DNA of 59,008 nt from positions 1-59,008 of the forward strand of contig JAGCDO010000052.1 in the NCBI GenBank assembly GCA_017651265.1, given 5' to 3'. This DNA is from Prevotella sp. Its GTDB lineage: Bacteria > Bacteroidota > Bacteroidia > Bacteroidales > Bacteroidaceae. Every line of letters begins with the position of its first letter. Position 1 is the first letter of the stretch. The notes beneath the pieces were generated by a model. The model had not been told where the DNA came from, did no database searches, and saw only the letters and a list, made by a program, of their open reading frames with translations. Shown here one piece after another: positions 19,773 through 52,968 of this stretch. Both the position numbers and the translations under genes were made by a program.

Positions 19773-19853
19773 TTCCCACCATGGGAACGTTTTATTCCCA
19801 ACTTGGGAACACTTTATTCCCACCATGGGAACTTTTCATTCCCATGGTGGGAA
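19773..19853. repeat. Array of four 22-bp palindromic units (TTCCCA-nnn-TGGGAA)
   Basis: Fifteen-bp cores start at 19773, 19795, 19817 and 19839, exactly 22 bp apart, each TTCCCA-nnn-TGGGAA with central triplets CCA, ACT, CCA, TGG. The 7-bp spacers are T-rich (CGTTTTA, CACTTTA, CTTTTCA). It fills the gap between the convergent thrC and tilS genes. Each core could form a small hairpin in RNA from either side. Confidence 0.9.
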
Positions 19854-19864
19854 AATTATATCAG

Positions 19865-21250
19865 TTAGGGAGTAACGGTAATTTGCAGTACACGTTCCGT
19901 GTTGCGGGTAATGCAAAATTGATTATCTGGTCGTTCATTAACCAACCAGACAATACGGTTTGAGCCATCTGTAACCACGAGTTGCCGACGTTTATCGAAC
20001 AGCGAATACTTACGGTCGGTTAAATAATCGGAAACAAGTTTACTGCCTTTCATACCAAAAGGAACGAAGCGGTCACCCTGTTGTACAGGACGAATCGTCA
20101 GCGGGAAAGACACTGTAGCAGCATCCAGACAGGCTGTGCACTTATCATGAGGGATTTCGCTCATGTTCATCTCCGCAATCGAGAATCGGAAACGCATGGT
20201 AGAATCTTCGTCTGCTTTCATTCCACTGGAGGCGCAATGATAGAGATACGTGCCTGTTTCTGGAATCCGCATCGGCTTAGCCGACTTATACAATGGTTCA
20301 ATAATCAGTTCCTCACGGTCGATCAGCACTTCATGCGTAGTCGAACAAAACACCGTTCCCGACTCAGCATCCAGTCTTTCACCAATCTGCTCCACCTGCG
20401 GAGACGAGAAACCGTAATCTTTCAGAATCGTATATAAGACATATTCCGGCGACGGCGTGGTATTCAGTAACTTGATAGAGATACGATTGCCGTTCATCAC
20501 CTTGGCAACATGTTCTTTCATAGCCTCATCAAACACCTTCGCTGCCTCTTGGATATACAGAGCAGACTGGGCGATGTTTTCCTTGGCCGATGGTGTTACC
20601 TGTTGAAGAAGCGGAATTACCTCCAAGCGAAGTTTGTTTCTGAGGGTCTCATCTGCATTCAGATTGGTACTGTCAGTCATGTACGACTGTCCGATTTTTT
20701 CCAAGTACTGCTCAATATCTGCACGAGAAAGACAAAGTAAGGGGCGTACCACAGTGAGAGGAGCAGGAAAAGGCTTCGACATAGTCTTTAGGTAACTTAC
20801 CGGTTGAATACCTGCAAGACCGTGAATGCCTGTTCCTCGCAAAAGATTCATCAGAACGGTTTCCACCGTATCATCCTGATGATGCGCCACACAGACTGCG
20901 GCTGCTGAGAGATCCTGACACAGCTGTGCGAAATAGGGGTAGCGCAGCTCACGAGCCGCCATCTCCACACTGACGTGATGCGACGATGCATATTCACGTG
21001 TATCAAAGTGAATACGGTGCAAGGGAATATGCTGCTCTTCGCAAAGAGACACGCAGAACAGTTCATCACGTTCAGCCTCCTCGCCACGCAGGTTGAAGTT
21101 ACAATGAACTGCTTCAACGGAATAACCTAATTGTTTGAGTATCAAAAGAAGACAAACGCTATCTGCACCTCCTGACAAAGCCACGAGGTAATGCTCTTCT
21201 TGTTGGAGCAACTGGTGCTTTTTAATGAAGTCTGCAACGCGTTTGTTCAT
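19865..21250 (-). CDS. tilS: tRNA(Ile)-lysidine synthase
   Basis: A protein of 461 residues. VALSGGADSVCLLLIL holds the PP-loop (SGGADS) ATP site near the N-terminus, followed by VCVAHHQDDTVETVLMNLLRGTGIHGLAG typical of TilS, and a C-terminal tRNA-binding domain. It modifies C34 of tRNA-Ile(CAU) to lysidine using ATP and lysine. The ATG at 21250 is chosen; a TTG three codons upstream would abut the rlmI-like stop directly (TAG-TTG) and is a possible alternative. Last gene of a three-gene minus-strand operon. Confidence 0.93.
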   Translation of the reverse strand: MNKRVADFIKKHQLLQQEEHYLVALSGGADSVCLLLILKQLGYSVEAVHCNFNLRGEEAERDELFCVSLCEEQHIPLHRIHFDTREYASSHHVSVEMAARELRYPYFAQLCQDLSAAAVCVAHHQDDTVETVLMNLLRGTGIHGLAGIQPVSYLKTMSKPFPAPLTVVRPLLCLSRADIEQYLEKIGQSYMTDSTNLNADETLRNKLRLEVIPLLQQVTPSAKENIAQSALYIQEAAKVFDEAMKEHVAKVMNGNRISIKLLNTTPSPEYVLYTILKDYGFSSPQVEQIGERLDAESGTVFCSTTHEVLIDREELIIEPLYKSAKPMRIPETGTYLYHCASSGMKADEDSTMRFRFSIAEMNMSEIPHDKCTACLDAATVSFPLTIRPVQQGDRFVPFGMKGSKLVSDYLTDRKYSLFDKRRQLVVTDGSNRIVWLVNERPDNQFCITRNTERVLQITVTP

Positions 21251-21259
21251 ATCACTCAA

Positions 21260-22444
21260 CTATTCCACGTACAATACCAACCCCTTCAGATACTCCCCTT
21301 CAGGATGATAGATGTTAATGGGGTGATCAGCCGGTTGATGAAGCTGGTGAAGAATACGTACCTTCCTACCGCTCATGGCCGCAGCGGTGAACACCGCCTG
21401 ACGGAACTGATCCTTCGTCACGACCTGTGAGCAGCTGAACGTAAAGAGAATACCACCATGACGAATGCGTTGGAATGCCTTCACGTTCAGTCGGGTATAA
21501 CCCTTCAACGCATTATGCAAGGCTCCTCTATGCTTGGCAAACGCAGGAGGATCGAGAATAATCAGGTCATAGATATCATCGGAATTGTCAAGGAATTTGA
21601 AAGCATCATCGCAGAACGCCTGGTGACGTTCATCACCTGGGAAGTTCAGTTCCACATTGGCATTAGTGAGTTCAATGGCCTTGGCGCTGCTATCCACGGA
21701 ATGAACCAGCTGTGCCCCACCACGCATGGCATAGAAAGAAAAACCACCAGTATAACAGAACATGTTCAATACCCGCTTGTCCTTGGCATACCGTTCCAGC
21801 AACGAACGGTTCTCCCGCTGATCCACAAAGAAGCCCGTCTTCTGTCCACGCAGCCAATCCACATGGAACAGCAGACCGTTCTCCATCGCTGTATTATCGT
21901 TGGAGCCACCGATAATGAACCCGTTCTCTTGTCCGAGTTCCGCTTTATAGGGCAGAGTCGTCTCACTCTTATAGAACACATTCTTGATCGTTCCCTCCAT
22001 TACCTTCACCAACATCTCGGCAATCACCTTCCTGCAGACATGTATACCCACCGAATGGGCCTGCATCACAGCCGTATCGCCGTAGCAGTCGATCACCAGT
22101 CCGGGCATATTGTCCCCCTCACCATGCACCAGTCGGTAGGTATTATTCAAGGGATTCCCGGCAATGCCTATGCTGAGACGCATCTCATAGGCTGCTTTGA
22201 GACGGGCATACCAGAACGCCTCGTCGATCTCCACATCGCGGAACGACAGGATTCTGACGGCAATGGTGCCCACTTGGTAATGACCAACGGCAAGGAAAGT
22301 GTTGTCTGCCCCTATCACCCGTACCGTTTCTCCTTCAGTGATACCGCTGTCGGCATGATGGATAGCACCCGAAAACACCCAGGGATGGAAGCGTTTAAGA
22401 CTCTCCTCCTTGCCCCGTTTGAGGTAAATTCTCTTGTATTCCAT
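21260..22444 (-). CDS. RlmI-like 23S rRNA (cytosine-C5) methyltransferase
   Basis: A protein of 394 residues. An N-terminal PUA-like domain (IYLKRGKEESLKRFHPWVFSGAI) is followed by a Rossmann-type methyltransferase: VLNMFCYTGGFSFYAM (SAM motif I), DLIILDPPAFAKHRGA (motif IV DPP) and FSCSQVV with the motif VI Cys. This is the class I rRNA methyltransferase family that includes E. coli RlmI (m5C1962). Its first 50 bp overlap the end of the exonuclease gene, and tilS follows closely, indicating one transcript. Confidence 0.88.
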   Translation of the reverse strand: MEYKRIYLKRGKEESLKRFHPWVFSGAIHHADSGITEGETVRVIGADNTFLAVGHYQVGTIAVRILSFRDVEIDEAFWYARLKAAYEMRLSIGIAGNPLNNTYRLVHGEGDNMPGLVIDCYGDTAVMQAHSVGIHVCRKVIAEMLVKVMEGTIKNVFYKSETTLPYKAELGQENGFIIGGSNDNTAMENGLLFHVDWLRGQKTGFFVDQRENRSLLERYAKDKRVLNMFCYTGGFSFYAMRGGAQLVHSVDSSAKAIELTNANVELNFPGDERHQAFCDDAFKFLDNSDDIYDLIILDPPAFAKHRGALHNALKGYTRLNVKAFQRIRHGGILFTFSCSQVVTKDQFRQAVFTAAAMSGRKVRILHQLHQPADHPINIYHPEGEYLKGLVLYVE

Positions 22445-23060
22445 TATCTATGATCTCCAATTCGTAATCATGAGTTTTCTCCAAACGCATCAGCTCCTCA
22501 TAAAGCATGATACATGCCCAAGCATCAGTGGCGGCATACACCTTTTGTTTCTCGTCGAGCACATCCCGTTCCCAGTTGCTCAGCTGCTGACGTTTCAGGA
22601 TTTTCTGGTGGAAGAAGTTGGCATAGAGCTTCTGCAGACTCCTATCTTCAATCCCTATCTCCCCCACCAACTGCTGTAGGTCGATGAATCTTCCTGGTGT
22701 GAACTCCGCTCTTTTCCTTAAAGAAAGCAAATCATCATGCCAAGAAAGACCGATTTTGGGAACACGTGTATCCTCCAGGAGTCGAATCAGCGCTGGAGTA
22801 AGTCCGGTATAGTTCAAGCGGAAAAGGAAACAGCAGTTGTGCGTGGCCACCTGCAATAAGGACACAGCATACTGTGCACCTTTCTTGAAGGATGGTCGCG
22901 TCTCGGTATCCACACCAAGAATATCCTGTGAAAGCAGATAATCCACAGCCTTTTCCGTCTCACCAGGAGAGAGAACGACGATGATTCTCCCTTCGAACTG
23001 AACCACCGGCAGATTGTTTATATCCTTCTTATCGAACTTGTTAACAAGTAATTTTTTCAT
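22395..23060 (-). CDS. RNase D-like 3'-5' exonuclease (DEDDy)
   Basis: A protein of 221 residues with a single 3'-5' exonuclease domain. GVDTETRPSF is Exo I (D-x-E), GLSWHDDLLSLRK is Exo II, and YAATDAWACIMLYEEL is Exo III with the Tyr of the DEDDy type. There is no HRDC domain, so it is shorter than E. coli RNase D. The ATG at 23060 is chosen because a -7 promoter element (23080-23088) lies inside the longer frame. Its 3' end overlaps the next gene by 50 bp, which is unusually long for an operon overlap here. Confidence 0.85.
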   Translation of the reverse strand: MKKLLVNKFDKKDINNLPVVQFEGRIIVVLSPGETEKAVDYLLSQDILGVDTETRPSFKKGAQYAVSLLQVATHNCCFLFRLNYTGLTPALIRLLEDTRVPKIGLSWHDDLLSLRKRAEFTPGRFIDLQQLVGEIGIEDRSLQKLYANFFHQKILKRQQLSNWERDVLDEKQKVYAATDAWACIMLYEELMRLEKTHDYELEIIDNGIQENLPQTGQGGES

Positions 23061-23079
23061 CCTAAACTGATAACAAGGT

Positions 23080-23088
23080 GCAAAATTA
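23080..23088 (-). promoter_or_regulatory. -7 promoter element TAATTTTGC for the exonuclease-rlmI-tilS operon
   Basis: Consensus match on the minus strand, 19 bp before the ATG at 23060. Confidence 0.65.
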
Positions 23089-23131
23089 GAAAAAAAATGC
23101 GATTTTTTGGCGAAATGTGGCAAAATTCAAT

Positions 23132-23140
23132 TACTTTTGC
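23132..23140 (+). promoter_or_regulatory. ftsK: -7 promoter element TACTTTTGC for ftsK
   Basis: Consensus match 25 bp before the ftsK ATG, with TTTG at 23106-23109. It is divergent from the exonuclease promoter. Confidence 0.65.
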
Positions 23141-23165
23141 AGATAATTAAACAATGATATAGAGA

Positions 23166-25610
23166 ATGGCAAAGAAAAAGCAAGCAAAAACTGCCAAGAA
23201 TTTCTCGGAAGCTATCGGCTTTGGCAATATATTCAAGAATGATATATTCAACTTCATTTTCGGATTTATCCTGCTGTTGTTGGCAGTATATGTCACCATT
23301 GCGTTCGTCTCGTACTTCTCCACAGGACAGGCCGACCAGAGTCTGTTGCTGGACAGAAGACCTGGTGAGCTGCTGAACACCCATCAGGAATACCAGAACA
23401 GCTGCGGATCAATAGGAGCCGTCATCTCCTACTTCTTCATTTCCCGCTGCTTCGGTCTTTCGGCATTTATCATCCCTGTACTCATGGCGTTAATTGGTCT
23501 GAGGATGATGCATGCCTATAACAATATCAACCTTCTGAAATGGTTCTTGTGTCTGGTGATTCTGATGGTTTGGTGCTCTGTCACCTTCGCCAAGTTCCTT
23601 ACTCCCATCATGGGCGACCAGGTATTCAATCCCGGTGGCGACCATGGAATGTTCTGCTGTCAGTTCCTGGAGAACATCATCGGTTCACCCGGTCTAACGG
23701 CAGTACTCGGACTCATTGCTATTCTGTTCCTGACATATCTCACCACCGAAACCATCACGGTCATCCGCAAGATGCTGAATCCCATAGGATATATCCGTAG
23801 CAAGGTACAGTTCGTGATTACCAACGATCAGCGGAAGGAAGGTCCTACAATAAGCAACGAACCGGCATATGAACCTGTCATGACCTATGATGAACCGGAA
23901 GTTGAAGAGCCGTTGATATCGGAAAAGGAACCTGATATCATCGTTGAGATACCGGAAAAGGATCAGAAGGTGAAGCCGCAAGGAGGACAGAACACCAATG
24001 ACATTGACATCAATGTGGAGGTGGCCGATGCTGAGGAGAAAGCCAACAGTAAGGTTGTTACGACAGAAGTAGATCTGAGTACGCCTATCAATCCCCGTGA
24101 GCCGTGGCTGAAGTATAAGTTCCCCACCCTCGACCTGCTGAAGAAATACGAGGATGGCGACAAGCCTACGATTGATAAGGACGAACAGCAGCGTAACATG
24201 AACCGTATTGTAGAGGTACTGAACAGCTTTGGCGTACAGATTCGTTCCATTCATGCCACCGTCGGTCCTACCATCACCCTGTATGAAATCACTCCAGCAG
24301 AAGGTGTGCGCATCTCCAGAATCCGCAATTTGGAGGATGATATCGCTTTGAGTCTGCGCGCTTTGGGTATTCGTATCATCGCGCCCATTCCTGGTAAGGG
24401 AACCATTGGTATCGAGGTACCCAACGAGAAACCTCAGATTGTCTCTATGGAGAGTATCTTGAACTCCAAGCGGTTCCGTGAGACAACAATGGATCTGCCC
24501 ATTGCATTAGGTAAGACCATTACGAATGATGTGTTCATGGTTGACCTGGCCAAGATACCGCATCTGCTGGTGGCAGGTGCTACCGGTCAAGGTAAATCGG
24601 TTGGACTGAATGCCATCATCACATCCTTGCTTTACAAGAAGCATCCCAACGAATTGAAGTTCGTGCTTATCGACCCGAAGAAGGTGGAGTTTAGTATCTA
24701 TACCCCCATCGTGAACCACTTCATGGCGCAGATACCTACCGAAAATGAGGACGAGGAAGCTATCATCACTGATGTTACAAAGGTTATCAAGACCTTGAAC
24801 TCCCTTTGTAAGTTGATGGATCATCGCTACGACCTGCTGAAGATTGCCGGTGCCCGAAACATCAAGGAGTATAATAAGAAATATGTGGAGCATAAGCTGA
24901 AACCAACCGACGGTCATGACTTCATGCCCTATATCGTGGTCATCATTGATGAGTATGGCGACCTGATTATGACTGCTGGTAAGGAAATCGAATTACCTAT
25001 TGCCCGTATTGCACAGCTGGCCCGTGCAGTAGGTATTCACATGGTGATTGCCACCCAGCGTCCTACCACCAAGATCATCACGGGTACCATCAAGACCAAC
25101 TTCCCCGGTCGTATCGCCTTCCGTACCGCACAGCGCATCGACTCCATGACCATTCTCGACCAGACCGGTTCTAACCAGTTGATCGGACGAGGTGACATGC
25201 TTTACAAGAACGGTGGGGAACCCATCCGTGTACAGTGTGCCTTTGTCGATACGCCAGAGGTAGAGAGAATCAACCGATACGTAGAAGAGCAGCCTGGTCC
25301 GCTGGAACCCTTGGAGTTGCCAGAGCCCTCAACCGATGAGGCAGGCGGCGTAGGTCCTGACGGCAAGGTTGATGTGCATAGTCTTGACCCGTTGTTCGAG
25401 GAAGCAGCGCGCCACATCGTGCTCACCCAGCAGGGTTCCACCAGTATGATCCAGCGCCGTTTCTCCATTGGTTACAACCGCGCCGGTCGTTTGATGGACC
25501 AGCTGCAGGAAGCAGGCATCGTGGGTGAAGCCATGGGCAGTAAGCCTCGCGAAGTGTTAATTACTGATGTAAACCAGCTCGATAACCTCTTCGCTGCGTT
25601 AAGAAGATAA
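23166..25610 (+). CDS. ftsK: FtsK/SpoIIIE DNA translocase
   Basis: A protein of 814 residues. Four membrane segments in the first about 200 residues are followed by an acidic linker, the alpha/beta motor domain with Walker A GATGQGKSVGLN (Lys about residue 477) and Walker B IVVIIDEYGDLI, and a winged-helix gamma domain at the C-terminus (GSTSMIQRRFSIGYNRAGRLMDQLQEAGIVG). It pumps DNA at the division septum and activates XerCD at dif. The LolA-like gene downstream repeats the ftsK-lolA neighbourhood seen in other bacteria. Confidence 0.95.
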   Translation: MAKKKQAKTAKNFSEAIGFGNIFKNDIFNFIFGFILLLLAVYVTIAFVSYFSTGQADQSLLLDRRPGELLNTHQEYQNSCGSIGAVISYFFISRCFGLSAFIIPVLMALIGLRMMHAYNNINLLKWFLCLVILMVWCSVTFAKFLTPIMGDQVFNPGGDHGMFCCQFLENIIGSPGLTAVLGLIAILFLTYLTTETITVIRKMLNPIGYIRSKVQFVITNDQRKEGPTISNEPAYEPVMTYDEPEVEEPLISEKEPDIIVEIPEKDQKVKPQGGQNTNDIDINVEVADAEEKANSKVVTTEVDLSTPINPREPWLKYKFPTLDLLKKYEDGDKPTIDKDEQQRNMNRIVEVLNSFGVQIRSIHATVGPTITLYEITPAEGVRISRIRNLEDDIALSLRALGIRIIAPIPGKGTIGIEVPNEKPQIVSMESILNSKRFRETTMDLPIALGKTITNDVFMVDLAKIPHLLVAGATGQGKSVGLNAIITSLLYKKHPNELKFVLIDPKKVEFSIYTPIVNHFMAQIPTENEDEEAIITDVTKVIKTLNSLCKLMDHRYDLLKIAGARNIKEYNKKYVEHKLKPTDGHDFMPYIVVIIDEYGDLIMTAGKEIELPIARIAQLARAVGIHMVIATQRPTTKIITGTIKTNFPGRIAFRTAQRIDSMTILDQTGSNQLIGRGDMLYKNGGEPIRVQCAFVDTPEVERINRYVEEQPGPLEPLELPEPSTDEAGGVGPDGKVDVHSLDPLFEEAARHIVLTQQGSTSMIQRRFSIGYNRAGRLMDQLQEAGIVGEAMGSKPREVLITDVNQLDNLFAALRR

Positions 25611-25677
25611 AAAAGGAATAAACCCTGTAACGGTGTTATCCGTCAAATCAGGGCAAACCATTTAATCATAATAGAAA

Positions 25678-26280
25678 ATGAAAAAGATTGTTTATATATT
25701 GATGATGCTTGTTATCGCCATCAGTACTCAGGCACAAACAGCCACACAGGCACGACAGATTCTCGACAAGACTGCGGCTGTGGTAGGTAACAAGAACGGC
25801 GCACAAGCCAAGTTCTCCATGAGCGGAAAGTATGGCAATGCCACAGGAACCATCTATGTCAAAGGTAACAAATTCTGTGCTCATACCGAAAAAGCCACGG
25901 TGTGGTACGACGGGAAGACACAGTGGACGCTGAACAAGCAGGCCGAAGAGGTAAGTGTAAGTACTCCTACGGAAGCGCAGCAGCAGGCTATGAACCCCTA
26001 TACCTTTATTAATATATACAAGAACGGCTTTACGATGAGCAGTAAGACCGTTAGCGGGAAGTACGAGGTGCATCTCACCGCACAGAACCAGAAGCGTACC
26101 ATCAAGGAAATGTACCTGACAATCGACAAGAGCTATAAGCCCACACAGGTGAAGATGCGTACAGAGAAAGGCTGGACAGTGATCAACATCTCGAATTTCC
26201 AGACGAAGAAGCTCAGTGATTCATTCTTCGCCTTCCGCTCAAAAGATTATCCCAATGCAGAGGTTATCGACCTCCGTTAA
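25678..26280 (+). CDS. LolA-like outer-membrane lipoprotein carrier
   Basis: A protein of 200 residues with a signal peptide (ending STQAQ). The mature part shows the LolA pattern: QARQILDKTAAVV, a chain of beta strands (AKFSMSGKYGNATGTIYVKGNKF, VWYDGKTQWTLNKQAEEVSVSTPTEAQQ, NPYTFINIYKNGF), then YLTIDKSYKPTQVKMRTEKGWTVINISNFQTKKLSDSFFAF. It would carry lipoproteins across the periplasm. It is 67 bp after ftsK with no -7 element in between, so probably co-transcribed. Confidence 0.85.
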   Translation: MKKIVYILMMLVIAISTQAQTATQARQILDKTAAVVGNKNGAQAKFSMSGKYGNATGTIYVKGNKFCAHTEKATVWYDGKTQWTLNKQAEEVSVSTPTEAQQQAMNPYTFINIYKNGFTMSSKTVSGKYEVHLTAQNQKRTIKEMYLTIDKSYKPTQVKMRTEKGWTVINISNFQTKKLSDSFFAFRSKDYPNAEVIDLR

Positions 26281-26295
26281 TCCATTTATTATTCT

Positions 26296-27795: not shown

Positions 27796-27870
27796 GAGAT
27801 GAAAGATAGAGATAAATAGACTTTTTTGAAAAAAGTTCAGAAAATATTTGGTGGTTTCAGAAAAAGGCAG

Positions 27871-27879
27871 TACCTTTGC
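27871..27879 (+). promoter_or_regulatory. Promoter for tRNA-Lys: -33 TTTG and -7 TACCTTTGC
   Basis: TTTG at 27847-27850 and TACCTTTGC at 27871-27879, separated by 20 bp, place transcription start about 40 bp before the tRNA. An A/T-rich perfect palindrome (27820-27836) upstream may end the DUF5687 transcript. Confidence 0.7.
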
Positions 27880-27921
27880 ACACGCAATTCGGGAAGCATC
27901 CCCATTGCACCCGACAAAGAT

Positions 27922-27994
27922 GCGCTTGTAGCTCAGTTGGTAGAGCACCTGACTCTTAATCAGGGTGTCCAGGGTTCGACCCCCTGCAGGCGTA
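27922..27994 (+). tRNA. tRNA-Lys, anticodon CTT
   Basis: A 73-nt cloverleaf: acceptor GCGCTTG/CAGGCGT (with two G-U pairs), D arm GCTC-AGTTGGTA-GAGC, anticodon arm CCTGA-CTCTTAA-TCAGG with anticodon CTT, variable loop GTGTC, T arm CAGGG-TTCGACC-CCCTG, discriminator A. CCA is not encoded. Flanked by its own promoter and terminator, so it is a single-gene unit. Confidence 0.95.
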
Positions 27995-28028
27995 CGAAGG
28001 CAACCATTTAGGTTGCCTTTTTTCGTAC
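27992..28028 (+). terminator. Intrinsic terminator after tRNA-Lys
   Basis: AAGGCAACC-ATTTA-GGTTGCCTT followed by a T-run. The outer bases GTACGA and TCGTAC extend the stem, so the whole element is nearly symmetrical and its 5' arm begins inside the last bases of the tRNA. Confidence 0.85.
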
Positions 28029-28141: not shown

Positions 28142-28159
28142 AGAAAAATAGAACAGGCG

Positions 28160-31125: not shown

Positions 31126-31320
31126 AAAAGGGCCGTATCGGTTCGATCGGGATACTCATCAAATAACATCGAAAACCGAGAAGGTTTCTCTTGCTAATGG
31201 CGGGCCATATAAAGCGCGAAAGCGGCTAAGCTGTAAAGCCGGTGGATTACAAAGGCGGAGAGCACTCAAATCATTTCTACTCGGAGTTTCATCACATCAT
31301 CGATACGGCTTCCTTTTTTT
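31126..31320 (+). ncRNA. Structured leader RNA upstream of ribE (possible cis-regulatory RNA)
   Basis: GCCGTATCG (31132-31140) and CGATACGGC (31301-31309) are perfect complements 160 nt apart and would close the whole domain. Within it are GTTCGAT/ATCG-AA-AACC, GAGAA-GGT-TTCTC (31178-31190), a CGC-GAAA-GCG tetraloop (31215-31224) and GGCT/AGCC. A run of seven T follows the closing helix by 4 nt (31314-31320), so the closing helix could also act as a terminator stem. It does not match the FMN (RFN) riboswitch or other classes I could recall. Confidence 0.5.
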
Positions 31321-34538: not shown

Positions 34539-34567
34539 TAACCATAAAACGAAACAAAAGGAAATGA
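34484..34567 (+). CDS. Possible upstream ORF, 27 codons, overlapping the mltG start
   Basis: ATG at 34484 opens a 27-codon frame (MKRKVSFSFAFCSLNR...) that stops at TGA 34565-34567, overlapping the mltG ATG as ATGA. It would be translated only from promoter 1 transcripts. Very basic, no recognisable family; its reading frame crosses the second promoter copy. Chance is possible. Confidence 0.3.
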   Translation: MKRKVSFSFAFCSLNRTFVTIKRNKRK

Positions 34568-35589
34568 AATACTTTACTTCACGTAAATACGCCATCGGTA
34601 CAGGAGTCTGTCTGCTGGTGATTCTTGGCATCGTCTATTATTTCTTCTTCTCCAGTCTGTCGGCTAAGGAAGAGACGTGTTATCTCTATATCGATGAAGA
34701 CGACACCATCGACAGTGTGTTCGCCAAGGTAAAACCCATGGCCAACGATGCAGGTATGACAGGCTTCTCCACCCTGATTCGTCACAGCTCATATGATGAG
34801 CATATCCGCACGGGCCGCTATGAGATAGCTCCCGGCGATGGGGCCTTTACGGTGTTCCGCCGCATCAAGAACGGATTACAGACTCCCCTGAACCTCACCA
34901 TTCCATCAGTACGCACACTCGACCGCCTCACTGGTTATCTGGGCAACAAACTGATGCTTGACAGTACAGAGTTGTATCGCACCCTGACCAACGAGGAGGA
35001 ATGTAGGAAACTGGGGTACGACACGCTTACCGTTATCAGCATGTTCATTCCTAACACCTACGACATGTACTGGAACATCTCTCAGGACAAGTTCCTGGAG
35101 CGCATGAAGAAGGAAAGTGAGAAATTCTGGAACGATGAGCGTCTCGACAAGGCAGAGGAGATGCATTTCACCCCTGTACAGGTCATCACCCTTGCCAGCA
35201 TCGTCGACGAGGAGACGTCCAACGATGAAGAGAAGCCCATGGTGGCCGGAATGTATGTCAACCGACTGAATGTAAATATGCCTCTTCAGGCAGATCCTAC
35301 TATTAAGTTCGCCCTGAAGGATTTCTCCCTGAAGCGTATCTATAACAACATGCTTTCGGTGAACAGTCCGTATAACACCTATAAGAATATAGGTCTGCCC
35401 CCTGGTCCTATCCGCATCCCCACCGTTGCAGGCATTGATGCGGTGCTCGATCATGTCCACCACAACTATTTATATATGTGTGCCAAGGAGGATTTCAGTG
35501 GCACCCATAACTTCGCCCGTACCTATCAGGAGCATATGATTAATGCTGCCAAGTATGCTGCAGCCCTGAATCATCGCGGAATCAAGTAA
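34564..35589 (+). CDS. mltG: Endolytic murein transglycosylase MltG
   Basis: A protein of 341 residues. One N-terminal membrane segment (YAIGTGVCLLVILGIVYYFFFSSL) anchors a periplasmic domain with a LysM-like part and the YceG catalytic signature: ITLASIVDEETSNDEEKPMVAGMYVNRLNVNMPLQADPTIKFAL, where the second Glu of DEET aligns with the catalytic Glu of E. coli MltG. The end YNTYKNIGLPPGPIRIPTVAGIDAVL is diagnostic. It cleaves nascent glycan strands. The ATG at 34564 is taken as the start because both promoters precede it. Confidence 0.93.
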   Translation: MKYFTSRKYAIGTGVCLLVILGIVYYFFFSSLSAKEETCYLYIDEDDTIDSVFAKVKPMANDAGMTGFSTLIRHSSYDEHIRTGRYEIAPGDGAFTVFRRIKNGLQTPLNLTIPSVRTLDRLTGYLGNKLMLDSTELYRTLTNEEECRKLGYDTLTVISMFIPNTYDMYWNISQDKFLERMKKESEKFWNDERLDKAEEMHFTPVQVITLASIVDEETSNDEEKPMVAGMYVNRLNVNMPLQADPTIKFALKDFSLKRIYNNMLSVNSPYNTYKNIGLPPGPIRIPTVAGIDAVLDHVHHNYLYMCAKEDFSGTHNFARTYQEHMINAAKYAAALNHRGIK

Positions 35590-35646: not shown

Positions 35647-35734
35647 ATCGGGTATAGGCACACGATCGTTTGCCTATAGCCGTTCAATCGTTTGCGTATA
35701 GGCGTCAGATCGTTTGCGTATAGGCAATCGATAA
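35647..35734. repeat. Array of four 22-bp units with a GCcTATAgGC palindrome
   Basis: Units start at 35647, 35669, 35691 and 35713, exactly 22 bp apart. Three begin TTTGC(C/G)TATAG(G/C)C and most end in ATCG. The consensus core TTGCCTATAGGCAA is a perfect palindrome, though each copy has one or two changes; the first unit is the most diverged. It follows mltG. Confidence 0.85.
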
Positions 35735-36101: not shown

Positions 36102-37439
36102 ATGAATGCAGCAAAAGTTGTAGAAGATCTCAAACAGAGATTCCCCAATGAGCCGGAGTACATCCAGGCAGTTTCTCAGGTACTTCCTACGATCGAGGAA
36201 GAGTATAACAAGCACCCTGAGTTCGAGAAGGCTAACCTGATCGAGCGTCTGTGCATCCCCGATCGTATTTGTGAGTTCCGCATTACTTGGGTGGATGACA
36301 AGGGTAACGTGCAGACAAACATGGGTTACCGTATTCAGCACAACAACGCCATTGGTCCGTACAAAGGTGGTCTTCGCTATCACAAGAGTGTGAACCTCGG
36401 TATTCTGAAGTTCCTTGCTTTCGAGCAGACCTTCAAGAACTCACTGACAACACTGCCGATGGGTGGTGCAAAGGGTGGTTCCGACTTCTCTCCCCGTGGT
36501 AAGAGCGATGCAGAGGTGATGCGCTTCTGCCAGGCATTCATGAACGAGCTGTACCGTGTGATTGGTCCGGATGAGGACGTTCCCGCTGGTGATATCGGTG
36601 TAGGTGGCCGTGAGGTTGGCTATCTGTTCGGACAGTACAAGAAGCTCACTCATCAGTTCCAGGGCGTGCTGACCGGTAAGGGAATCCCCTTCGGTGGTTC
36701 ACTGATCCGTCCTGAGGCAACCGGTTACGGTACTGTTTACTTCCTGACTTCTATGCTTGCAACCCGCAACATCGACATCAAGGGTAAGAAGGTGCTGATC
36801 TCTGGTGCTGGTAACGTGGCTCAGTATGCTGCTGAGAAGTGTCTGCAACTGGGTGCTATCCCCATGACCATGTCTGACTCTGACGGTTACATCTTTGATC
36901 CGGACGGAATCGATCGTGCAAAGCTCGACTATATCATGGAGCTGAAGAACGTAGAGCGTGGACGTATCAAGGAGTATGTTGAGGAGTATCCTACAGCTAA
37001 GTACTACGAGGGCAAGCGTCCTTGGTATGAGAAGGCTGATATTGCTCTGCCTTGCGCTACACAGAACGAGATCAACGGTGACGAGGCTGCAGCCCTCGTG
37101 AAGAACGGTGTGATTGCTGTGGCTGAGGGTGCTAACATGCCTTCACTGCCTGAGGCTATCAAGATCTTCCAGGATGCTAAGATCCTCTACTCTCCGGGTA
37201 AGGCTTCTAACGCCGGTGGTGTATCTGTATCTGGTCTTGAGATGTCACAGAACTCTGAGCGTCTGAGCTGGACAGCAGAGGAAGTTGACAACTACCTGAA
37301 GCGTATCATGAACGACATTCACGAGAACTGCGTGAAGTACGGTACAGAGAAGGATGGTTACATCAACTATGTGAAGGGTGCTAACGTAGCAGGCTTCATG
37401 AAGGTTGCCAAGGCCATGATGGCTCAGGGAATCGTATAA
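36102..37439 (+). CDS. gdhA: NADP-type glutamate dehydrogenase
   Basis: A protein of 445 residues, the standard length of hexameric bacterial GDH. NNAIGPYKGGLRYHKSVN, LPMGGAKGGSDFSPRGKS with the catalytic Lys, PAGDIGVGGREVGYLFGQYKKL and the nucleotide-binding VLISGAGNVAQYAAEKC are all intact. It assimilates ammonia into glutamate. The ATG at 36102 is preferred to a TTG two codons upstream. Codon use is strongly biased, consistent with high expression, and a strong bidirectional terminator follows. Confidence 0.96.
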   Translation: MNAAKVVEDLKQRFPNEPEYIQAVSQVLPTIEEEYNKHPEFEKANLIERLCIPDRICEFRITWVDDKGNVQTNMGYRIQHNNAIGPYKGGLRYHKSVNLGILKFLAFEQTFKNSLTTLPMGGAKGGSDFSPRGKSDAEVMRFCQAFMNELYRVIGPDEDVPAGDIGVGGREVGYLFGQYKKLTHQFQGVLTGKGIPFGGSLIRPEATGYGTVYFLTSMLATRNIDIKGKKVLISGAGNVAQYAAEKCLQLGAIPMTMSDSDGYIFDPDGIDRAKLDYIMELKNVERGRIKEYVEEYPTAKYYEGKRPWYEKADIALPCATQNEINGDEAAALVKNGVIAVAEGANMPSLPEAIKIFQDAKILYSPGKASNAGGVSVSGLEMSQNSERLSWTAEEVDNYLKRIMNDIHENCVKYGTEKDGYINYVKGANVAGFMKVAKAMMAQGIV

Positions 37440-45037: not shown

Positions 45038-45043
45038 TTAAAT

Positions 45044-45123
45044 GTGGAGTGAGGAGTGTGGAGTGAGGAGTGAGAAATGCACCATGACAAGTTCATAGTA
45101 GTAATCTCACTCCACACTCCTCA
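45044..45123. repeat. Heptad-built inverted repeat after the dcu gene
   Basis: The left side is a run of heptads, GTGGAGT, GAGGAGT, GTGGAGT, GAGGAGT (45044-45071). Eighteen bp of it (45050-45067) are perfectly inverted at 45106-45123, across a 38-nt loop. The right arm and the bases before it closely match the element inside the RlmD-like gene at 56444-56540. Confidence 0.85.
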
Positions 45124-45194
45124 TATTTTAGTTAGTTTTACTTAAAAAACACACACGGAACGCTGAAATATTTTGGTAGTATATAAATAATGTG

Positions 45195-45203
45195 TACTTT
45201 TGC
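45195..45203 (+). promoter_or_regulatory. Promoter for the EFR1 gene: -33 TTTG and -7 TACTTTTGC
   Basis: TTTG (45172-45175) and TACTTTTGC (45195-45203) are 19 bp apart. It excludes translation starts before about 45207. Confidence 0.7.
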
Positions 45204-45235
45204 ACCGAAATATTTCAAAAAGTCGTTTAAGACAC

Positions 45236-46030: not shown

Positions 46031-46053
46031 TGTAATTCGTAGAGTAAATAAAA

Positions 46054-47982: not shown

Positions 47983-49733
47983 GATTGTTCTTGTGCTTTA
48001 TCCTGTTCTGCCTTACAACTATTGAAGGACAGGCCGCAAAGGCCTACCCTCATCCCGTCAAAACCATTCAATCAGATGGAACAACACTCATCGTCGTAGC
48101 TCGCGGCGATGAGTCGTTTCATTATTATATGACCACCGATAGTGTGTTGTTGTACCATGAGGGGAAAGATTTCTTCATTGCTCAGGTAAACGATGATGGT
48201 TCATTATCGCCCACTTCTCAGTTGGCTCATGAGAAAGGCAACAGAAAGGTGACAGAGGAACATTTGGTACAAGTACAAGACCGGCACTTGTTTTTTCAGT
48301 TCCTGACAAAACAGACGCAGAAGCGGGTGATGCAAAGGGAACCTATCAAGGTGGATCATACGTATTTGCCACATACTGGTCAGCCACGCATTGCTGTTAT
48401 CCTTGCGCAGTTTACCGATGACACATTCATGGATGAAGACCCCAAAAGTGTCTTTGAGCAGTATTTGAATGCTGAGGAAATAGATAATCAGGTGGGAAAC
48501 CAAACCGTTGGCAGAAACTACGGTAGCGTAAGGCGCTATTTCAAGGATATGAGCTTCGGATTGTTTGAACCCCAGTTCGACCTTTATGGACCTGTCACCC
48601 TCTCTCATCCCACCTCCTATTATGGTGCAGGTAAGGACCGCATGGACCTGTTTATACCAGAAGTATGCGAATTAGCTGAGGAACAAGGATTGAAGTTCTC
48701 TGAATATGATAGCAATGACGACGGTTACGTGGATCTGGTCTATGTAATCTATGCTGGCTATTCTGAGTGTTTTACAGGAACACCCACAACATGCATCTGG
48801 CCCAAATCGGGAATCATCAGTGCCTTTGAGATGGATGGGAAATACATCTACCGCTATGGTGTGAATTCTGAACTTAACGCCTTTCCTGGTGCATGGGAGA
48901 ACCCGCCATACGAACGCATCAACGGTATTGGACTGTTCTGTCATGAGTTCTCTCATTGCATGGGAATGCCCGACTTCTACCCCACCTCAACAACTGCGCA
49001 GAATGCTTTTAATCCAGGAATGGAACGATGGAGCTTGATGGACGACGGCGAGTATGTGGATAATGGATATACACCTACTGAATATACAGCATGGGAACGG
49101 GAGGCCATGGGTTGGTTCAAGATAGATACACTGAACACATCTGGTTTCTATACGATGACTAACATCAATGAAGAAGGAGGAAAAGCTTATAGGATCATTA
49201 ACAGTGAGGATTCCAGCGAGTGCTTCATCCTGCAAAACATTCAGCTAACCGGTTGGAACAGTAAACTCGACGGTCATGGAATGCTTGTAACGCATGTGGA
49301 TTTCAGTCCTTCCATATTCAGAAACAACACGGTAAACAACACCATCGGTCATTCAAGGATGACCTTCATTCCTGCCGACGAAGAGTATATCAGCGCTTTC
49401 CAGATTGATGCAGAAACCATTACCCGACAGATGTATTGCGACAATCATGCGGGGGATCCCTTCCCAGGCACAAAAGATGTCACAGCCATCAATGAGTTTC
49501 CTGCCTATACCGGAATAATGAAAGAACGGGTGTATGACATTACGGAGCATCAAGAAAGGGTATCGTTCTACTTTGATGACGGAACAACGGGCATCAAACA
49601 GACCATCATCTCACAAAAAGAGAATGGGAAACACGAAATATTTACCCTTGACGGACGGAGCATGGGTTACAACATCGCCACACTACCTAAAGGAATATAT
49701 ATCGTCAACGGACAGAAAACCGTTATTCGTTAG
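47979..49733 (+). CDS. Secreted M6-family metalloprotease with T9SS-like C-terminus, copy 2
   Basis: A protein of 584 residues, a tandem paralogue of the preceding gene (ATGA overlap). It shares the propeptide pattern, DSNDDGYVDLVYVIYAGYS, the zinc motif FCHEFSHCMGMPDFYP and the same C-terminal ending (FTLDGRSMGYNIATLPKGIYIVNGQKTVIR). It lacks a stretch of about 20 residues after the MDGGEYS-type sequence and has a shorter signal peptide (MRLFLCFILFCLTTIEGQAAKA). The two proteases are probably made and secreted together. Its 3' end overlaps the convergent DUF4738 gene by 11 bp. Confidence 0.88.
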   Translation: MRLFLCFILFCLTTIEGQAAKAYPHPVKTIQSDGTTLIVVARGDESFHYYMTTDSVLLYHEGKDFFIAQVNDDGSLSPTSQLAHEKGNRKVTEEHLVQVQDRHLFFQFLTKQTQKRVMQREPIKVDHTYLPHTGQPRIAVILAQFTDDTFMDEDPKSVFEQYLNAEEIDNQVGNQTVGRNYGSVRRYFKDMSFGLFEPQFDLYGPVTLSHPTSYYGAGKDRMDLFIPEVCELAEEQGLKFSEYDSNDDGYVDLVYVIYAGYSECFTGTPTTCIWPKSGIISAFEMDGKYIYRYGVNSELNAFPGAWENPPYERINGIGLFCHEFSHCMGMPDFYPTSTTAQNAFNPGMERWSLMDDGEYVDNGYTPTEYTAWEREAMGWFKIDTLNTSGFYTMTNINEEGGKAYRIINSEDSSECFILQNIQLTGWNSKLDGHGMLVTHVDFSPSIFRNNTVNNTIGHSRMTFIPADEEYISAFQIDAETITRQMYCDNHAGDPFPGTKDVTAINEFPAYTGIMKERVYDITEHQERVSFYFDDGTTGIKQTIISQKENGKHEIFTLDGRSMGYNIATLPKGIYIVNGQKTVIR

Positions 49734-50529
49734 GAACCTCCTTCATCACCATCTTCCCGTCAGCTGACACAACCACATCTATTACATAACTGCTGGGCGA
49801 ATCAGGAACACAAAGTTGTGCTTGATGATGGAAGCCTTCAGCATCGGTCTTCATCAGAATCATGTCACTGAGGATTACCTGATTGATGCGGTCCTTGGGA
49901 ACAAACTGTACGAACTCGTGCTTCTTGAAATCATGCGAGTATTTCTTCACGGCTCCCTTGAACACGGCCACATGAATGGTGTTATCGTAATAGACATTTC
50001 CTACTTCCATACCCTCGTCTGTATTGGCCGATTTGATGACCTTATATGTGGTAGGATTAACCTGCACATAACAATGATAACGTTCACCATTATAGGCTAT
50101 TACGGTATCTCGCTTAATGGTTCTGTTCTGGTTCAGAACTACAGGATGCTTCGTCTCGAAATAGGTAATATCGTCTTCAGTATTATCACTCTTCACCAAT
50201 TCCACTGTCTCCCCATTGGGATTCTTGAAGTCGAGCACATGTTCGCTCTGACGGATAATCGGGTACTTCACCACCGTACCGCCCTCAACGATGAGCGTAT
50301 CGGCAATAATCATGAAATGAGCTGGCATACTGGTGGAGTCAGGATAATAGATGCTATCCCCTTCCACCCGAAAAGCAGGTTCCTCGTCAACAGTGTTTAC
50401 CCAGATGCCTTGCAATAGCTGCTTGGCCTGACGGTCCTCTTCCACCACAGGCAACGTGCTATCCTGCTTCTTTCCTCCACAAGCGGAAAAAAGAATCACG
50501 ATCATGATGATATATAAGAACCGTCGCAT
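49723..50529 (-). CDS. DUF4738-like lipoprotein
   Basis: A protein of 268 residues. MRRFLYIIMIVILFSACGGKKQD is a lipoprotein signal with lipobox FSAC. The rest is beta-rich (IWVNTVDEEPAFRVEGDSIYYPDSTSMPAHFMIIADTLIVEGGTVVKYPI) and resembles DUF4738 proteins of Bacteroidota. Function unknown. The ATG at 50529 is chosen because the lipobox then falls at residue 17. It is 16 bp downstream of rfbC and likely co-transcribed. Confidence 0.75.
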   Translation of the reverse strand: MRRFLYIIMIVILFSACGGKKQDSTLPVVEEDRQAKQLLQGIWVNTVDEEPAFRVEGDSIYYPDSTSMPAHFMIIADTLIVEGGTVVKYPIIRQSEHVLDFKNPNGETVELVKSDNTEDDITYFETKHPVVLNQNRTIKRDTVIAYNGERYHCYVQVNPTTYKVIKSANTDEGMEVGNVYYDNTIHVAVFKGAVKKYSHDFKKHEFVQFVPKDRINQVILSDMILMKTDAEGFHHQAQLCVPDSPSSYVIDVVVSADGKMVMKEVPNE

Positions 50530-50545
50530 AAAAATGCTAATATGT

Positions 50546-51094
50546 TTATTCAAAATACTCCGCATCGCGGAATGCATTGGCTTTTAAATCCTTTTCACTT
50601 GTTAGTACGTCCTGTTGGTTAATTGGCCAGACAATACCTAAGTCGGGATCATCAAATCGTATCGCTGCCTCAGCCTGAGGTGCATACACATTATCCACCT
50701 TGTAGGTAAAGATAGCTTCATCGCTCAGTACCAGGAAGCCATGGGCAAAACCTCGCGGGATGAAGAACTGTCGTTTGTTCTCGTCGCTAAGTTCTACCAT
50801 GACATGCTTACCGAAGGTTGGCGAGCTCTTGCGGATATCCACGGCTACATCCAATACACGACCCTTGATTACTCGTACTAACTTCGCTTGCGACAGGTCG
50901 CCTTTCTGGTAATGCAGGCCTCTGAGAACACCATAACCCGACTTCGACTCATTGTCCTGAATGAAGTTCACCTTACCGATGTGCTCCTCAAACTCCGACT
51001 GCTTGAATGCTTCAAAGAAATACCCACGGGCATCGTTGAATACCCGCGGCTCGATGATATAGACACCTTCGATTTCTGTAGCTTTGTATTCCAT
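50546..51094 (-). CDS. rfbC: dTDP-4-dehydrorhamnose 3,5-epimerase
   Basis: A protein of 182 residues. GVYIIEPRVFNDARGYFFEAFKQSEF, NESKSGYGVLRGLHYQ with the catalytic His, AKLVRVIKGRVLDVAVDIRKSSPTFGKH and FFIPRGFAHGFLVLSDEAIFTYKVDNVYAP are the RmlC signatures. It makes dTDP-L-rhamnose precursor for surface polysaccharide. The start at 51094 aligns with family proteins, but the -7 element ends only about 5 bp before it, so the mRNA must be almost leaderless. Other rml genes are not in the window. Confidence 0.94.
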   Translation of the reverse strand: MEYKATEIEGVYIIEPRVFNDARGYFFEAFKQSEFEEHIGKVNFIQDNESKSGYGVLRGLHYQKGDLSQAKLVRVIKGRVLDVAVDIRKSSPTFGKHVMVELSDENKRQFFIPRGFAHGFLVLSDEAIFTYKVDNVYAPQAEAAIRFDDPDLGIVWPINQQDVLTSEKDLKANAFRDAEYFE

Positions 51095-51098
51095 ACGT

Positions 51099-51107
51099 GC
51101 AAAAGTA
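51099..51107 (-). promoter_or_regulatory. rfbC: -7 promoter element TACTTTTGC for rfbC, almost touching the start codon
   Basis: Only 4 bp separate the element from the ATG, so transcription should start within about 3 nt of the start codon. Confidence 0.65.
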
Positions 51108-51191
51108 ATCATAAAATTTTGATTATGGAAGATAATAGTTGTTTTTTTTGTTTTTAACATCCATTTCTTTGGTAATTCAGAAGAAAACGAG

Positions 51192-51200
51192 TAAATTTGC
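51192..51200 (+). promoter_or_regulatory. -7 promoter element TAAATTTGC for the HU/SPOR gene, almost touching the start codon
   Basis: The ATG at 51204 is 3 bp after the element, again predicting a leaderless or near-leaderless mRNA. It is divergent from the rfbC promoter. Confidence 0.65.
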
Positions 51201-51203
51201 AGC

Positions 51204-52301
51204 ATGATTGAACTCGAAAGACATATAGAGATTCTTCTTTTGAACAACGACTGCGTAATCGTCCCAAATCTGGGAGGATTCGTTGCGCATCATAGGGAGG
51301 CTCACTACGACGGGAACGACCAACTGTTCCTGCCGCCATTGCGTACCATAGGGTTCAATCCGAAACTCCACCTGAATGATTCACTTCTTGCCCAATCATA
51401 TATTGAGGCATACGACATCAGCTATCCTGATGCCATGAACAGGATTGAAGGAGAAGTGAACGAACTGAAGCAGACACTGGAGAATGAAGGCTACTATGAA
51501 CTGAATGATATCGGTACGCTCTCGCTGAACGAGGACGGCCATTATGAGTTCATGCCCTGCGAAGCAGGTATTCTTACACCTTCACTCTACGGTCTGAGTT
51601 CTTTCGACATGACTTGCGTGAACACCTCTGAGGATTCTGCTACTGATTCTGCCACCATTATTAATATGGAGACGGAAGAAAAGAGCAAGACTGTCGATGA
51701 GGACAACGAAGCAGTTGCTGTTGCCTTGAAAGAGGAAGAAGCGGAAGAGAAACAGCCGCGCACCATCACCATTCGTGTCAGCACGCTCCGTAATGCTGCT
51801 GCCATTGCAGCCGCAGTCCTCGCTCTCTTCCTCATCACCACACCATTTGGAAGAGATGCACAAGCAGGGTTCAAGTTCTCTGACTTTGAGAAGACCTGGC
51901 TCTATCGGATCATGCCGAAGGAGAAGACAACCACCACGACTGATGTTAAACTTCAGCCTGAGCAGACTGCCAAGGCAGAAGTAAAGGCAGAGGCTCCGGC
52001 CGTTAAGCCTGAGCAGACGGTTGTTAAGGAACAGGTAAGCGAGGAGGTGCAAGCACCTGCAGCACCCCAGCATTACTGGTCGATCGTTCTGGCCAGTAAG
52101 GTAAGCATGAAGAATGCAAAAGCATTCGTTGAACAGCTCACCAACGACGGATTCAGTCTTGCAGAGGTTCTCGTTCAGAAAAGCGGAAACCGTGTAATCT
52201 ATGGTAAATACGCCACAGAGAAAGAAGCCTATACCAACTTAGGACAGTTGCGCCACAACGAGCAATTCCGTGAGGCATGGGTTTATGAGGTGAAGAGATA
52301 A
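51204..52301 (+). CDS. HU-CCDC81-like and SPOR-domain membrane protein
   Basis: A protein of 365 residues. Residues about 1-130 (MIELERHIEILLLNNDCVIVPNLGGFVAHHREA ... LNDIGTLSLNEDGHYEF) match the two bacterial HU-CCDC81 modules. An acidic linker leads to one membrane segment (NAAAIAAAVLALFLITTPF). The periplasmic part is Lys/Glu/Ala/Pro-rich and ends in a SPOR domain (HYWSIVLASKVSMKNAKAFVEQLTNDGFSLAEVLVQKSGNRVIYGKYATEKEAYTNLGQLR), which binds denuded septal peptidoglycan. Likely links cytoplasmic DNA or protein binding to the division site. Confidence 0.87.
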   Translation: MIELERHIEILLLNNDCVIVPNLGGFVAHHREAHYDGNDQLFLPPLRTIGFNPKLHLNDSLLAQSYIEAYDISYPDAMNRIEGEVNELKQTLENEGYYELNDIGTLSLNEDGHYEFMPCEAGILTPSLYGLSSFDMTCVNTSEDSATDSATIINMETEEKSKTVDEDNEAVAVALKEEEAEEKQPRTITIRVSTLRNAAAIAAAVLALFLITTPFGRDAQAGFKFSDFEKTWLYRIMPKEKTTTTTDVKLQPEQTAKAEVKAEAPAVKPEQTVVKEQVSEEVQAPAAPQHYWSIVLASKVSMKNAKAFVEQLTNDGFSLAEVLVQKSGNRVIYGKYATEKEAYTNLGQLRHNEQFREAWVYEVKR

Positions 52302-52333
52302 GCCGTACGCACACACCAAAACGTATTTGAAAC

Positions 52334-52867
52334 ATGAAGCGAGTAAGATGTCCTAAATGCGACCATTACATTACTTTTGATGAAACCCAGTACCAGGAAG
52401 GTCAGCGACTGATCTTTCAGTGTCCTGAATGCAGTAAACAGTTTGGTATTCGAATTGGTGTGTCCAAGCTCAGCGATCGTCAGAAGGACGAGAACCCGGA
52501 TGAGAATGCCAACGAGAAAGGTTTCGGCTCCATCATCGTCATCGAAAATGTGTTTCATTACAAGCAGGTCATCCCTCTGCAATTAGGCAATAACGTGATC
52601 GGGCGCTATCAGAAAGGCAATTCTATCAATACTCCTTTCGAGACTGTTGATCCCAGCGTAGATCTCAACCATTGCACCATCAACGTTAAACGCGATAAGC
52701 ATGGTAATATCTGTTATACACTTTCTGACAACAACAGTAATACCGGCACGTTCGTTGACAATGTGGAGTTAAAGCCCAATGAACGTCGAAGAATAGAAGA
52801 CGGTACTTTGTTCACTATTGGAGCAACGAGCATCATTCTAAGAGGGGCGAATAATGAGGAAGAATAG
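52334..52867 (+). CDS. Zinc-ribbon and FHA-domain protein
   Basis: A protein of 177 residues. An N-terminal zinc ribbon has CPKC (Cys 6, 9) and CPEC. A C-terminal FHA domain follows (VIGRYQKGNSINTPFETVDPSVDLNHCTINVKRDKHGNICYTLSDNNSNTGTFVDNVELKPNERRRIEDGTLFTIG), with the conserved GR and N-x-GT elements that recognise phosphothreonine, although the usual S-x-x-H is N-H. No Ser/Thr kinase is nearby. It is 32 bp after the HU/SPOR gene and may share its transcript. Confidence 0.85.
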   Translation: MKRVRCPKCDHYITFDETQYQEGQRLIFQCPECSKQFGIRIGVSKLSDRQKDENPDENANEKGFGSIIVIENVFHYKQVIPLQLGNNVIGRYQKGNSINTPFETVDPSVDLNHCTINVKRDKHGNICYTLSDNNSNTGTFVDNVELKPNERRRIEDGTLFTIGATSIILRGANNEEE

Positions 52868-52887
52868 GCATTTTTAAGCCCTTTTCC

Positions 52888-52968
52888 AAAACCTATGGTT
52901 TTACGATGCAAAAGCATAGGTTTTAGCGCCTAAAACCATAGGTATTGGAAGGCAAAACCGCAGGTATT
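52888..52968. repeat. Array of four 22-bp palindromic units (AAAACC-nnn-GGTTTT)
   Basis: Fifteen-bp cores start at 52888, 52910, 52932 and 52954, exactly 22 bp apart. The first is a near-perfect palindrome AAAACC-TAT-GGTTTT; later ones diverge at the ends (GGTATT). The 7-bp spacers are ACGATGC, AGCGCCT and GGAAGGC. It lies between the convergent FHA and ppdK genes. Confidence 0.9.

Follow-up and report, generated by a model that had tools for sequence, protein, structure and literature searches.

Three tandem arrays in the window and their neighbourhood

The window analysed here is a stretch of 59,008 bp from Prevotella sp. (contig JAGCDO010000052.1 of assembly GCA_017651265.1) and carries three short tandem arrays with a period of 22 bp, which are the subject of this report. 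Array 1 (19773..19853, assigned to no strand) consists of four TTCCCA-nnn-TGGGAA units separated by 7-bp spacers; the centres of its units read CCA, ACT, CCA and TGG in order, and the core of unit 4 exactly inverts that of units 1 and 3. Array 2 (about 35647..35734, plus strand) belongs to the TATAGGC family and holds three to four units, in which the conserved 17-mer ATCGTTTGSGTATAGGC is followed by five variable bases; its dyad is weak and was not picked up by the palindrome scan. Array 3 (52888..52968, minus strand) is of the AAAACC family; its four units (AATACCTATGGTTTT plus a 7-bp spacer) come near to AAAACC-nnn-GGTTTT with imperfect arms. Arrays 1 and 3 share a layout of 6-bp arms, 3-bp centre and 7-bp spacer (6-3-6-7), and the unit sequences of the three arrays are mutually unrelated.

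A first-pass annotation had proposed three arrays of unrelated palindromic cores, all intergenic and two of them between convergent genes. The arrays and their 22-bp period proved real, with 83 unit pairs of the array-1 pattern TTCCCAnnnTGGGAA in the source genome (3.16 Mb in 69 contigs, 93.9% complete) and none in the reversed-pattern control. The cores are indeed unrelated and all three arrays are intergenic, with convergent gene pairs flanking arrays 1 and 3 and two plus-strand genes flanking array 2. The palindromic core holds for array 1 and, imperfectly, for array 3, in whose family a perfect 6-bp palindrome occurs in 40 of 210 units from three genomes; it does not hold for array 2.

Genes were called with our own hexamer script, uncurated, and the names of the flanking genes are based on Pfam domains. 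A threonine synthase-like gene (Thr_synth_N, PALP; 18401..19756, plus strand) stops 16 bp ahead of array 1, on which a PP-loop gene (ATP_bind_3; 19865..21259, minus strand) converges. Upstream of array 2 lies a YceG-like gene (34564..35589, plus strand) and downstream a Glu/Leu/Phe/Val dehydrogenase-family gene (36102..37439, plus strand). An FHA-domain gene (52334..52867, plus strand) stops 20 bp ahead of array 3, and the pyruvate phosphate dikinase (PPDK) gene (53034..55754, minus strand) converges on it. A terminator-like hairpin with an 11-bp stem (52985..53010, assigned to no strand) adjoins array 3 as a separate feature, so that the array is not the sole candidate terminator at this junction. 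Rfam gave two matches in the window, neither of them at arrays 1, 2 or 3; a Bacteroidales-1 RNA (RF01693, suggested to be 6S RNA; 145 bits) lies at 31131-31316 and a tRNA at 27922-27994.

Dispersed families on a 22-bp lattice

When any spacer of 0-30 bp was allowed, the source genome yielded 84 TTCCCA pairs, 83 of them at 22 bp, and the genus as a whole 496, spread over 42 genomes, with 466 of them at 22 bp; the pairs off this distance were at 44 or 21 bp among the matches listed. The consensus of the family is TTCCCARCRTGGGAA followed by YAWWWTR, and the extended unit reads RTTCCCA-N3-TGGGAAY. Arrays in the source genome have two to six units, most commonly two (16 of 34 arrays), with the units in a single orientation in 25 of the 34 and mixed in nine, and none of 35 was called genic. 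With up to three mismatches, the AAAACC family was found at 27 places in 13 loci and the TATAGGC family at 20 places in nine. Genomic context came from 66 fetched stretches (733,555 bp) together with the window, many of the stretches having been picked because they bear arrays. Within the fetched stretches, start-to-start distances below 80 bp were 22 bp in 65 of 66 cases for TTCCCA (the remaining one being 21 bp), in 26 of 29 for AAAACC (the other three being 44 bp) and in 11 of 13 for TATAGGC.

Larger structures were met around some of these arrays. One is a composite element, intergenic and roughly 500 bp long, which is typified by L272:2012-2530 (contig C66 of the source genome) and dispersed over eight loci (L272, L276, L140, L125, L267, L273, L275 and L257); in it AACATACAC repeats stand together with a TTCCCA array of two units, an AAAACC array and an inverted block of GTGTATGTT. 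At L007:12921-13080 (contig C1) a mosaic array passes from TTCCCAnnnTGGGAA units to TTTGTAGCGTATAAA units with period and spacer kept, and is longer in the source genome than in its close relative G094. Near TTCCCA arrays we also observed a repeat, GACCTAAC, with periods of 11, 12 and 23 bp (L011:8269-8443, L024:8871-8929, L009:6002 and L017:1827).

A fourth family in a second species

An array of a further sequence, AAGCGCnnnGCGCTT, had been met once, in locus L088 of the uncultured Bacteroidales RUG14526, before its genome was searched. That genome (G465, 3.0 Mb) holds 140 such AAGCGC pairs with a spacer of 0-30 bp, as against none for the control, and they stand at 22 or 44 bp among the matches listed; the pair was absent from the three other genomes searched. 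At 21 loci of G465, 80 of the 81 distances between near-exact units were 22 bp and one was 44 bp, and the 22 arrays have two to ten units, most commonly five. The units of these arrays have the same 6-3-6-7 layout as TTCCCA, with unrelated arms, centres and spacers. AAGCGC is thus a fourth 22-bp family, found by a prediction that might have failed. A one-sided arm variant, AAGCAC/GTGCTT, also occurs in this family (L088 and L320-L339), accounting for 36 changes among 118 units.

TTCCCA arms are conserved while centres drift

We compared orthologous arrays among the source genome and its close relatives G094 and G179. Array 1 has four units in the source genome, four in G179 and two in G094 between conserved flanks, and array 3 shows no difference among the three genomes. 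At loci that differ only in the array, the length steps were 0, 22 or 44 bp; elsewhere indels also adjoin the array. In 15 pairwise comparisons, which come from 12 loci and are partly dependent on one another, TTCCCA substitutions numbered 5/600 in arms, 32/150 in centres and 16/245 in spacers. The nine comparisons that involve the source genome gave 2/360, 19/90 and 9/147, respectively. Four-fold sites differed from the source genome by 16.7% in G094 (77 genes) and 20.0% in G179 (47 genes), a calibration that covers these two pairings and leaves out G094 against G179 (6 of the 15 comparisons). For array 1, which was fetched through its flanking genes, the arms showed 0/72 changes and the centres 6/18. 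To judge from these counts, the TTCCCA arms are very strongly constrained and the spacers moderately so, and the centres drift about neutrally; the arm constraint is somewhat overstated because most of the loci were fetched for holding recognisable arrays.

Units of different loci differ by 0.3% in arms, 34.5% in centres and 42.5% in spacers, and neighbouring units by 36.2% in centres and 20.5% in spacers. Array copying or gene conversion would have taken the centres along with the arms, so purifying selection on the arms fits better, and copying is disfavoured as the source of arm identity since the centres lying between the arms are not homogenised. Hypermutable hairpin loops were rejected as an explanation of the centres, which are about neutral against four-fold sites at 17-20%.

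At the gene end that carries array 1, arrays were present in two of 20 relatives, namely the two closest, both of the TTCCCA family; another relative has a single TTCCCA unit, and in none of the 20 was an array of swapped sequence seen at this gene end. Intergenic comparisons over gaps of at least 100 bp showed length differences of at least 100 bp in 4 of 11 cases with arrays vs 5 of 26 without. In G094, an additional orphan open reading frame of 295 amino acids without a Pfam match (L026:8816-9860, against position 55897 of the window) is followed 24 bp on by a TTCCCA array of three units that lies upstream of PPDK; both are absent here. Such a gain or loss beside an array is what would be expected if the arrays were recombination sites like the neisserial dRS3/NIME (Neisseria intergenic mosaic element) arrays, promoting local gene gain and loss. 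The extended unit even ends in ATTCCC/GGGAAT as dRS3 does in the available text of PMC3898611, but its centre is of 5 bp instead of 8, and we consider this reading highly improbable.

Distribution among genomes and the peak at period 22

The TTCCCA pair was found in 39 of 200 genomes of the genus including the source genome (38 of 199 others); the 147 other genomes searched in the phylum were without it. A search of 118 other genomes in the order did not find the TATAGGC family, and an idealised array had no match among plasmids. Among viral contigs, the TTCCCA pair was present in five stretches and the AAGCGC pair in none. Four viral contigs of IMG/VR carry near-identical TTCCCA arrays (L341:3376-5720, L340, L343 and L344), and in L341 a Phage_integrase gene lies about 1.1 kb upstream of the array, which is a hint at most that the arrays might, like dRS3, be targets of a phage integrase.

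Periods in intergenic DNA were counted with Tandem Repeats Finder. At 80 loci of relatives, fetched through the PPDK gene alone and not chosen by arrays, period 22 accounted for 19 of 58 intergenic arrays, vs five at period 21 and three at period 23 (Poisson p ~5e-8 against a mean of 4), and the period-22 units of this set are mostly unrelated in sequence to one another. The source genome gave 21 of 51, its stretches being partly chosen for arrays; other members of the genus gave 8/19 (G094, likewise partly chosen), 5/9 (G162) and 3/16 (G016), and in G042 and G028 the count was 1/6. Small controls outside the genus gave 2/8 in the rest of the order and 0/7 in the phylum. Among the 17 palindromic arrays in the PPDK set that have three or more units, 11 had period 22, seven of these with a 3-bp loop, and two of the 17 were supplied by locus L026 of G094; shuffles gave none. 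At the same threshold, 3 of 7 palindromic arrays were at 22 bp in unselected stretches of the genus, one of two in unselected stretches of the source genome (352 kb) and none of one in the order control, and the phylum control was without arrays. In G016, which lacks the TTCCCA pair, a tandem array of nine palindromic units has a period of 41 bp (L150:17539).

Ordinary minisatellites, born of replication slippage with a mutational bias to about 22 bp and serving no function, could produce the copy-number steps of 22 bp as well as the many unrelated period-22 arrays, in which palindromy is no higher than in other arrays. Their arms would not be expected to fall far under the four-fold-site rate, as those of TTCCCA do, nor to be shared by dozens of loci and by 38 other genomes of the genus, nor would one family be expected to reach 140 pairs in G465. 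An origin by slippage is therefore very unlikely in our view.

These results also bear on the general rule that the first-pass annotation had drawn, in which a fixed geometry with free sequence pointed to selection on spacing or a dedicated copying mechanism. The fixed geometry is borne out by three families in the source genome, a predicted fourth and the peak at the 80 loci of relatives, and 22-bp units were commoner than other lengths, the controls outside the group being small. Selection on spacing is the favoured alternative, with other spacings rare and arms constrained while centres drift. Dedicated copying is disfavoured as the cause of arm sameness, the centres being unhomogenised, but some arrays did spread inside the composite element of about 500 bp. 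The strain comparison that had been suggested did reveal copy-number variation in 22-bp steps (among three species), and of the expected peak at 22 bp with about four copies the peak was found and the copy number is a loose tendency at best: "exactly four units" gives way to four and two for array 1 in relatives, and to two to six and two to ten in the families.

Position relative to genes

The 35 TTCCCA arrays of the source genome lie in tandem (16), divergent (10), convergent (7) and edge (2) contexts. Convergent gaps are over-represented (7/33 vs 9.6% expected by length, p=0.03), and 14 of the 16 arrays in tandem context are nearer to the 3' end of the upstream gene than to the start of the next gene. 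In G465, 14 of 22 AAGCGC arrays are convergent, where 29% would be expected on the basis of these fetched loci (p=0.0009), an expectation that is itself inflated because the loci were chosen at arrays, and 5 of 6 in tandem context are nearer to the 3' end. For the two families together this proportion is 19/22 (p=0.0009).

A preference for 3' ends and convergent genes is also the niche of repetitive extragenic palindromic (REP) sequences as given in the available text of PMC3733652, and the arrays might accordingly be repeats like REPs and bacterial interspersed mosaic elements (BIMEs), spread and kept by a mobile-element enzyme such as a domesticated transposase or recombinase. The geometry would then reflect the need of the enzyme, and only intact sites would spread. 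Like arms at dozens of loci and the presence of several arrays within the composite element fit such a history. The arms are nevertheless constrained in resident orthologous arrays, which spread alone leaves unexplained, and the RAYT domain (Y1_Tnp, PF01797), present in 15 of 28 genomes of the genus, had no match in the source genome (G000), in its two closest array-rich relatives G094 and G179, or in G162, G035 and G020. As the GTAG/CGTC tag is also absent, a RAYT-driven REP is unsupported for the source genome, and we regard a mobile-element origin in general as unlikely.

The arrays could otherwise act as RNA, forming hairpins in 3' untranslated regions that stop transcription or protect mRNA ends, with palindromes that serve both strands. 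All three fold better than shuffles (z of -6.7 and -8.7 on the two strands of array 1, -5.5 for array 2 and -4.9 for array 3), and an array occupies almost the whole convergent gap at array 1 of the window and at L322 and L334. However, no pairing covariation was found in the AAAACC family, for which selection on hairpins was rejected on this ground, and its perfect palindromes are few (40/210). The strand is inconsistent, with no preference among 16 arrays (7 sense, 8 antisense, 1 mixed). Intrinsic terminators have a GC-rich stem and, on the transcribed strand, a T run after it; hairpins of terminator-like form that lie outside the array were about equally frequent in convergent gaps with arrays (8/19) and without them (24/71), and array 3 itself stands beside a separate hairpin. 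With no strand preference, no AAAACC covariation and imperfect palindromes, a function at the RNA level is less likely, and we would put it down as distinctly improbable.

A tentative model of protein-bound arrays

The reading that we favour, though tentatively and short of conviction, is that the arrays are tandem, helically phased putative sites for sequence-specific, probably dimeric DNA-binding proteins in intergenic DNA, with a preference for gene 3' ends in TTCCCA and AAGCGC, the two families studied best. Each unit would be a dyad whose two 6-bp half-sites flank a 3-bp centre and are bound by a protein dimer. As 22 bp is about two helical turns, neighbouring dimers would sit on the same face of the DNA and be able to touch. 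Every family, or dialect, would be read by a protein of its own or by its own variant of a shared protein. A bound array may then serve as a two-way transcription boundary or roadblock, or as a supercoil or nucleoid anchor between convergent genes. The protein, its cooperativity and the function are thus proposed components of the model. The TTCCCA pattern would fit a dyad read by a dimer in its fixed half-sites, tolerant centre, fixed phase and either orientation.

Several observations weigh against this reading. No binding protein turned up, the searches having covered one transposase family only. The TATAGGC and AAAACC families are not clean dyads, and the orthologous comparison of AAAACC was uninformative (arms 1/132, centres 0/33). 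Palindromy was equal in period-22 and other arrays (14/40 vs 20/59, with shuffled units at about 8%), by which palindromy was rejected as a partner of the 22-bp period, and at period 22 there are palindromic arrays whose loops measure 0, 1, 4, 5 or 6 bp. Array positions are not retained beyond the two closest relatives, and most of the compared loci, those of G094 and G179 likewise, were fetched as array-bearing, with decayed arrays under-counted. As for gene context, divergent TTCCCA arrays (10/33) are about as frequent as length predicts (27.8%), TATAGGC shows no 3'-end preference (3 of 7 tandem arrays nearer to the 3' end, one convergent), and neither does AAAACC (2 of 4 in tandem context, with 6 of 13 divergent and three convergent).

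A broader form of the protein-site model, which we hold to be rather doubtful, extends it to many Prevotella-like Bacteroidales: a DNA-binding protein system with a constant 22-bp lattice, whose recognition sequences drift freely and differ from species to species, would mark gene 3' ends and the junctions of convergent genes there and form a boundary to transcription or supercoils in both directions, with at least one 6-3-6-7 dialect per species. The combination of constant geometry, free sequence, near-fixed half-sites and drifting 3-bp centres hints that a recognition system exists in bacteria common in the rumen and gut, and the 22-bp rule is simple enough to be looked for in any genome. 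The arrays may offer a handle on how convergent genes are separated, or the chromosome organised, in these bacteria.

Comparison with known systems

Among the known repeats, REPs are described in the available text of PMC3733652 and PMC2817692 as intergenic, lying between convergent genes or at 3' ends, forming regular clusters in some species and having species-specific sequences. The present arrays resemble REPs and BIMEs as short palindromes of high copy number that are extragenic (for TTCCCA, 83 pairs and 0/35 genic). They differ in that the TTCCCA consensus is, by inspection, without the GTAG/CGTC tag, and in forming a head-to-tail 22-bp lattice with a 6-3-6-7 layout common to unrelated sequences; as compared with BIMEs, the spacing is regular but most arrays keep to one orientation. 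CGTC REPs are reported to have no dedicated transposase (PMC3733652, in the text available). The neisserial dRS3/NIME repeats, ATTCCC(N8)GGGAAT, have a variable centre and occur in hundreds of copies in intergenic arrays, according to the available text of PMC3898611. RTTCCCA-N3-TGGGAAY has the same terminal ATTCCC/GGGAAT, whereas its centre is of 5 bp and not 8, and its units form a tandem 22-bp lattice.

Within the Bacteroidales, BrickBuilt of Porphyromonas gingivalis is a minisatellite-bearing miniature inverted-repeat transposable element (MITE) with tandem 23-nt repeats at 19 intergenic loci, and is alike in being an intergenic tandem repeat. It differs in having one sequence family with a leader, a tail and terminal inverted repeats, and the available text of PMC4596501 describes no palindromic unit or multi-family geometry. 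PINSR of Prevotella intermedia is an amplified intergenic repeat with 177 and 184 copies in two strains; it is a single sequence of 188 bp, and a 22-bp lattice is not mentioned in the available text of PMC4755523. In PMC2267715 the words Bacteroides, Porphyromonas, Prevotella, tandem and convergent are all absent. An earlier description of 22-bp palindromic Prevotella arrays was not found among the matches listed (titles and beginnings of abstracts), which is weak evidence.

Clustered regularly interspaced short palindromic repeat (CRISPR) arrays have repeats separated by long unique spacers, from which the semi-conserved 7-bp spacers of the present arrays are distinct. Cooperative operator arrays and plasmid iterons are helically phased tandem protein sites that serve one promoter or origin and lie beside the gene of their own protein, whereas the arrays here are scattered over the chromosome. 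The likeness to operator arrays lies, for the TTCCCA family, in its conserved half-sites, tolerant centre and fixed helical spacing.

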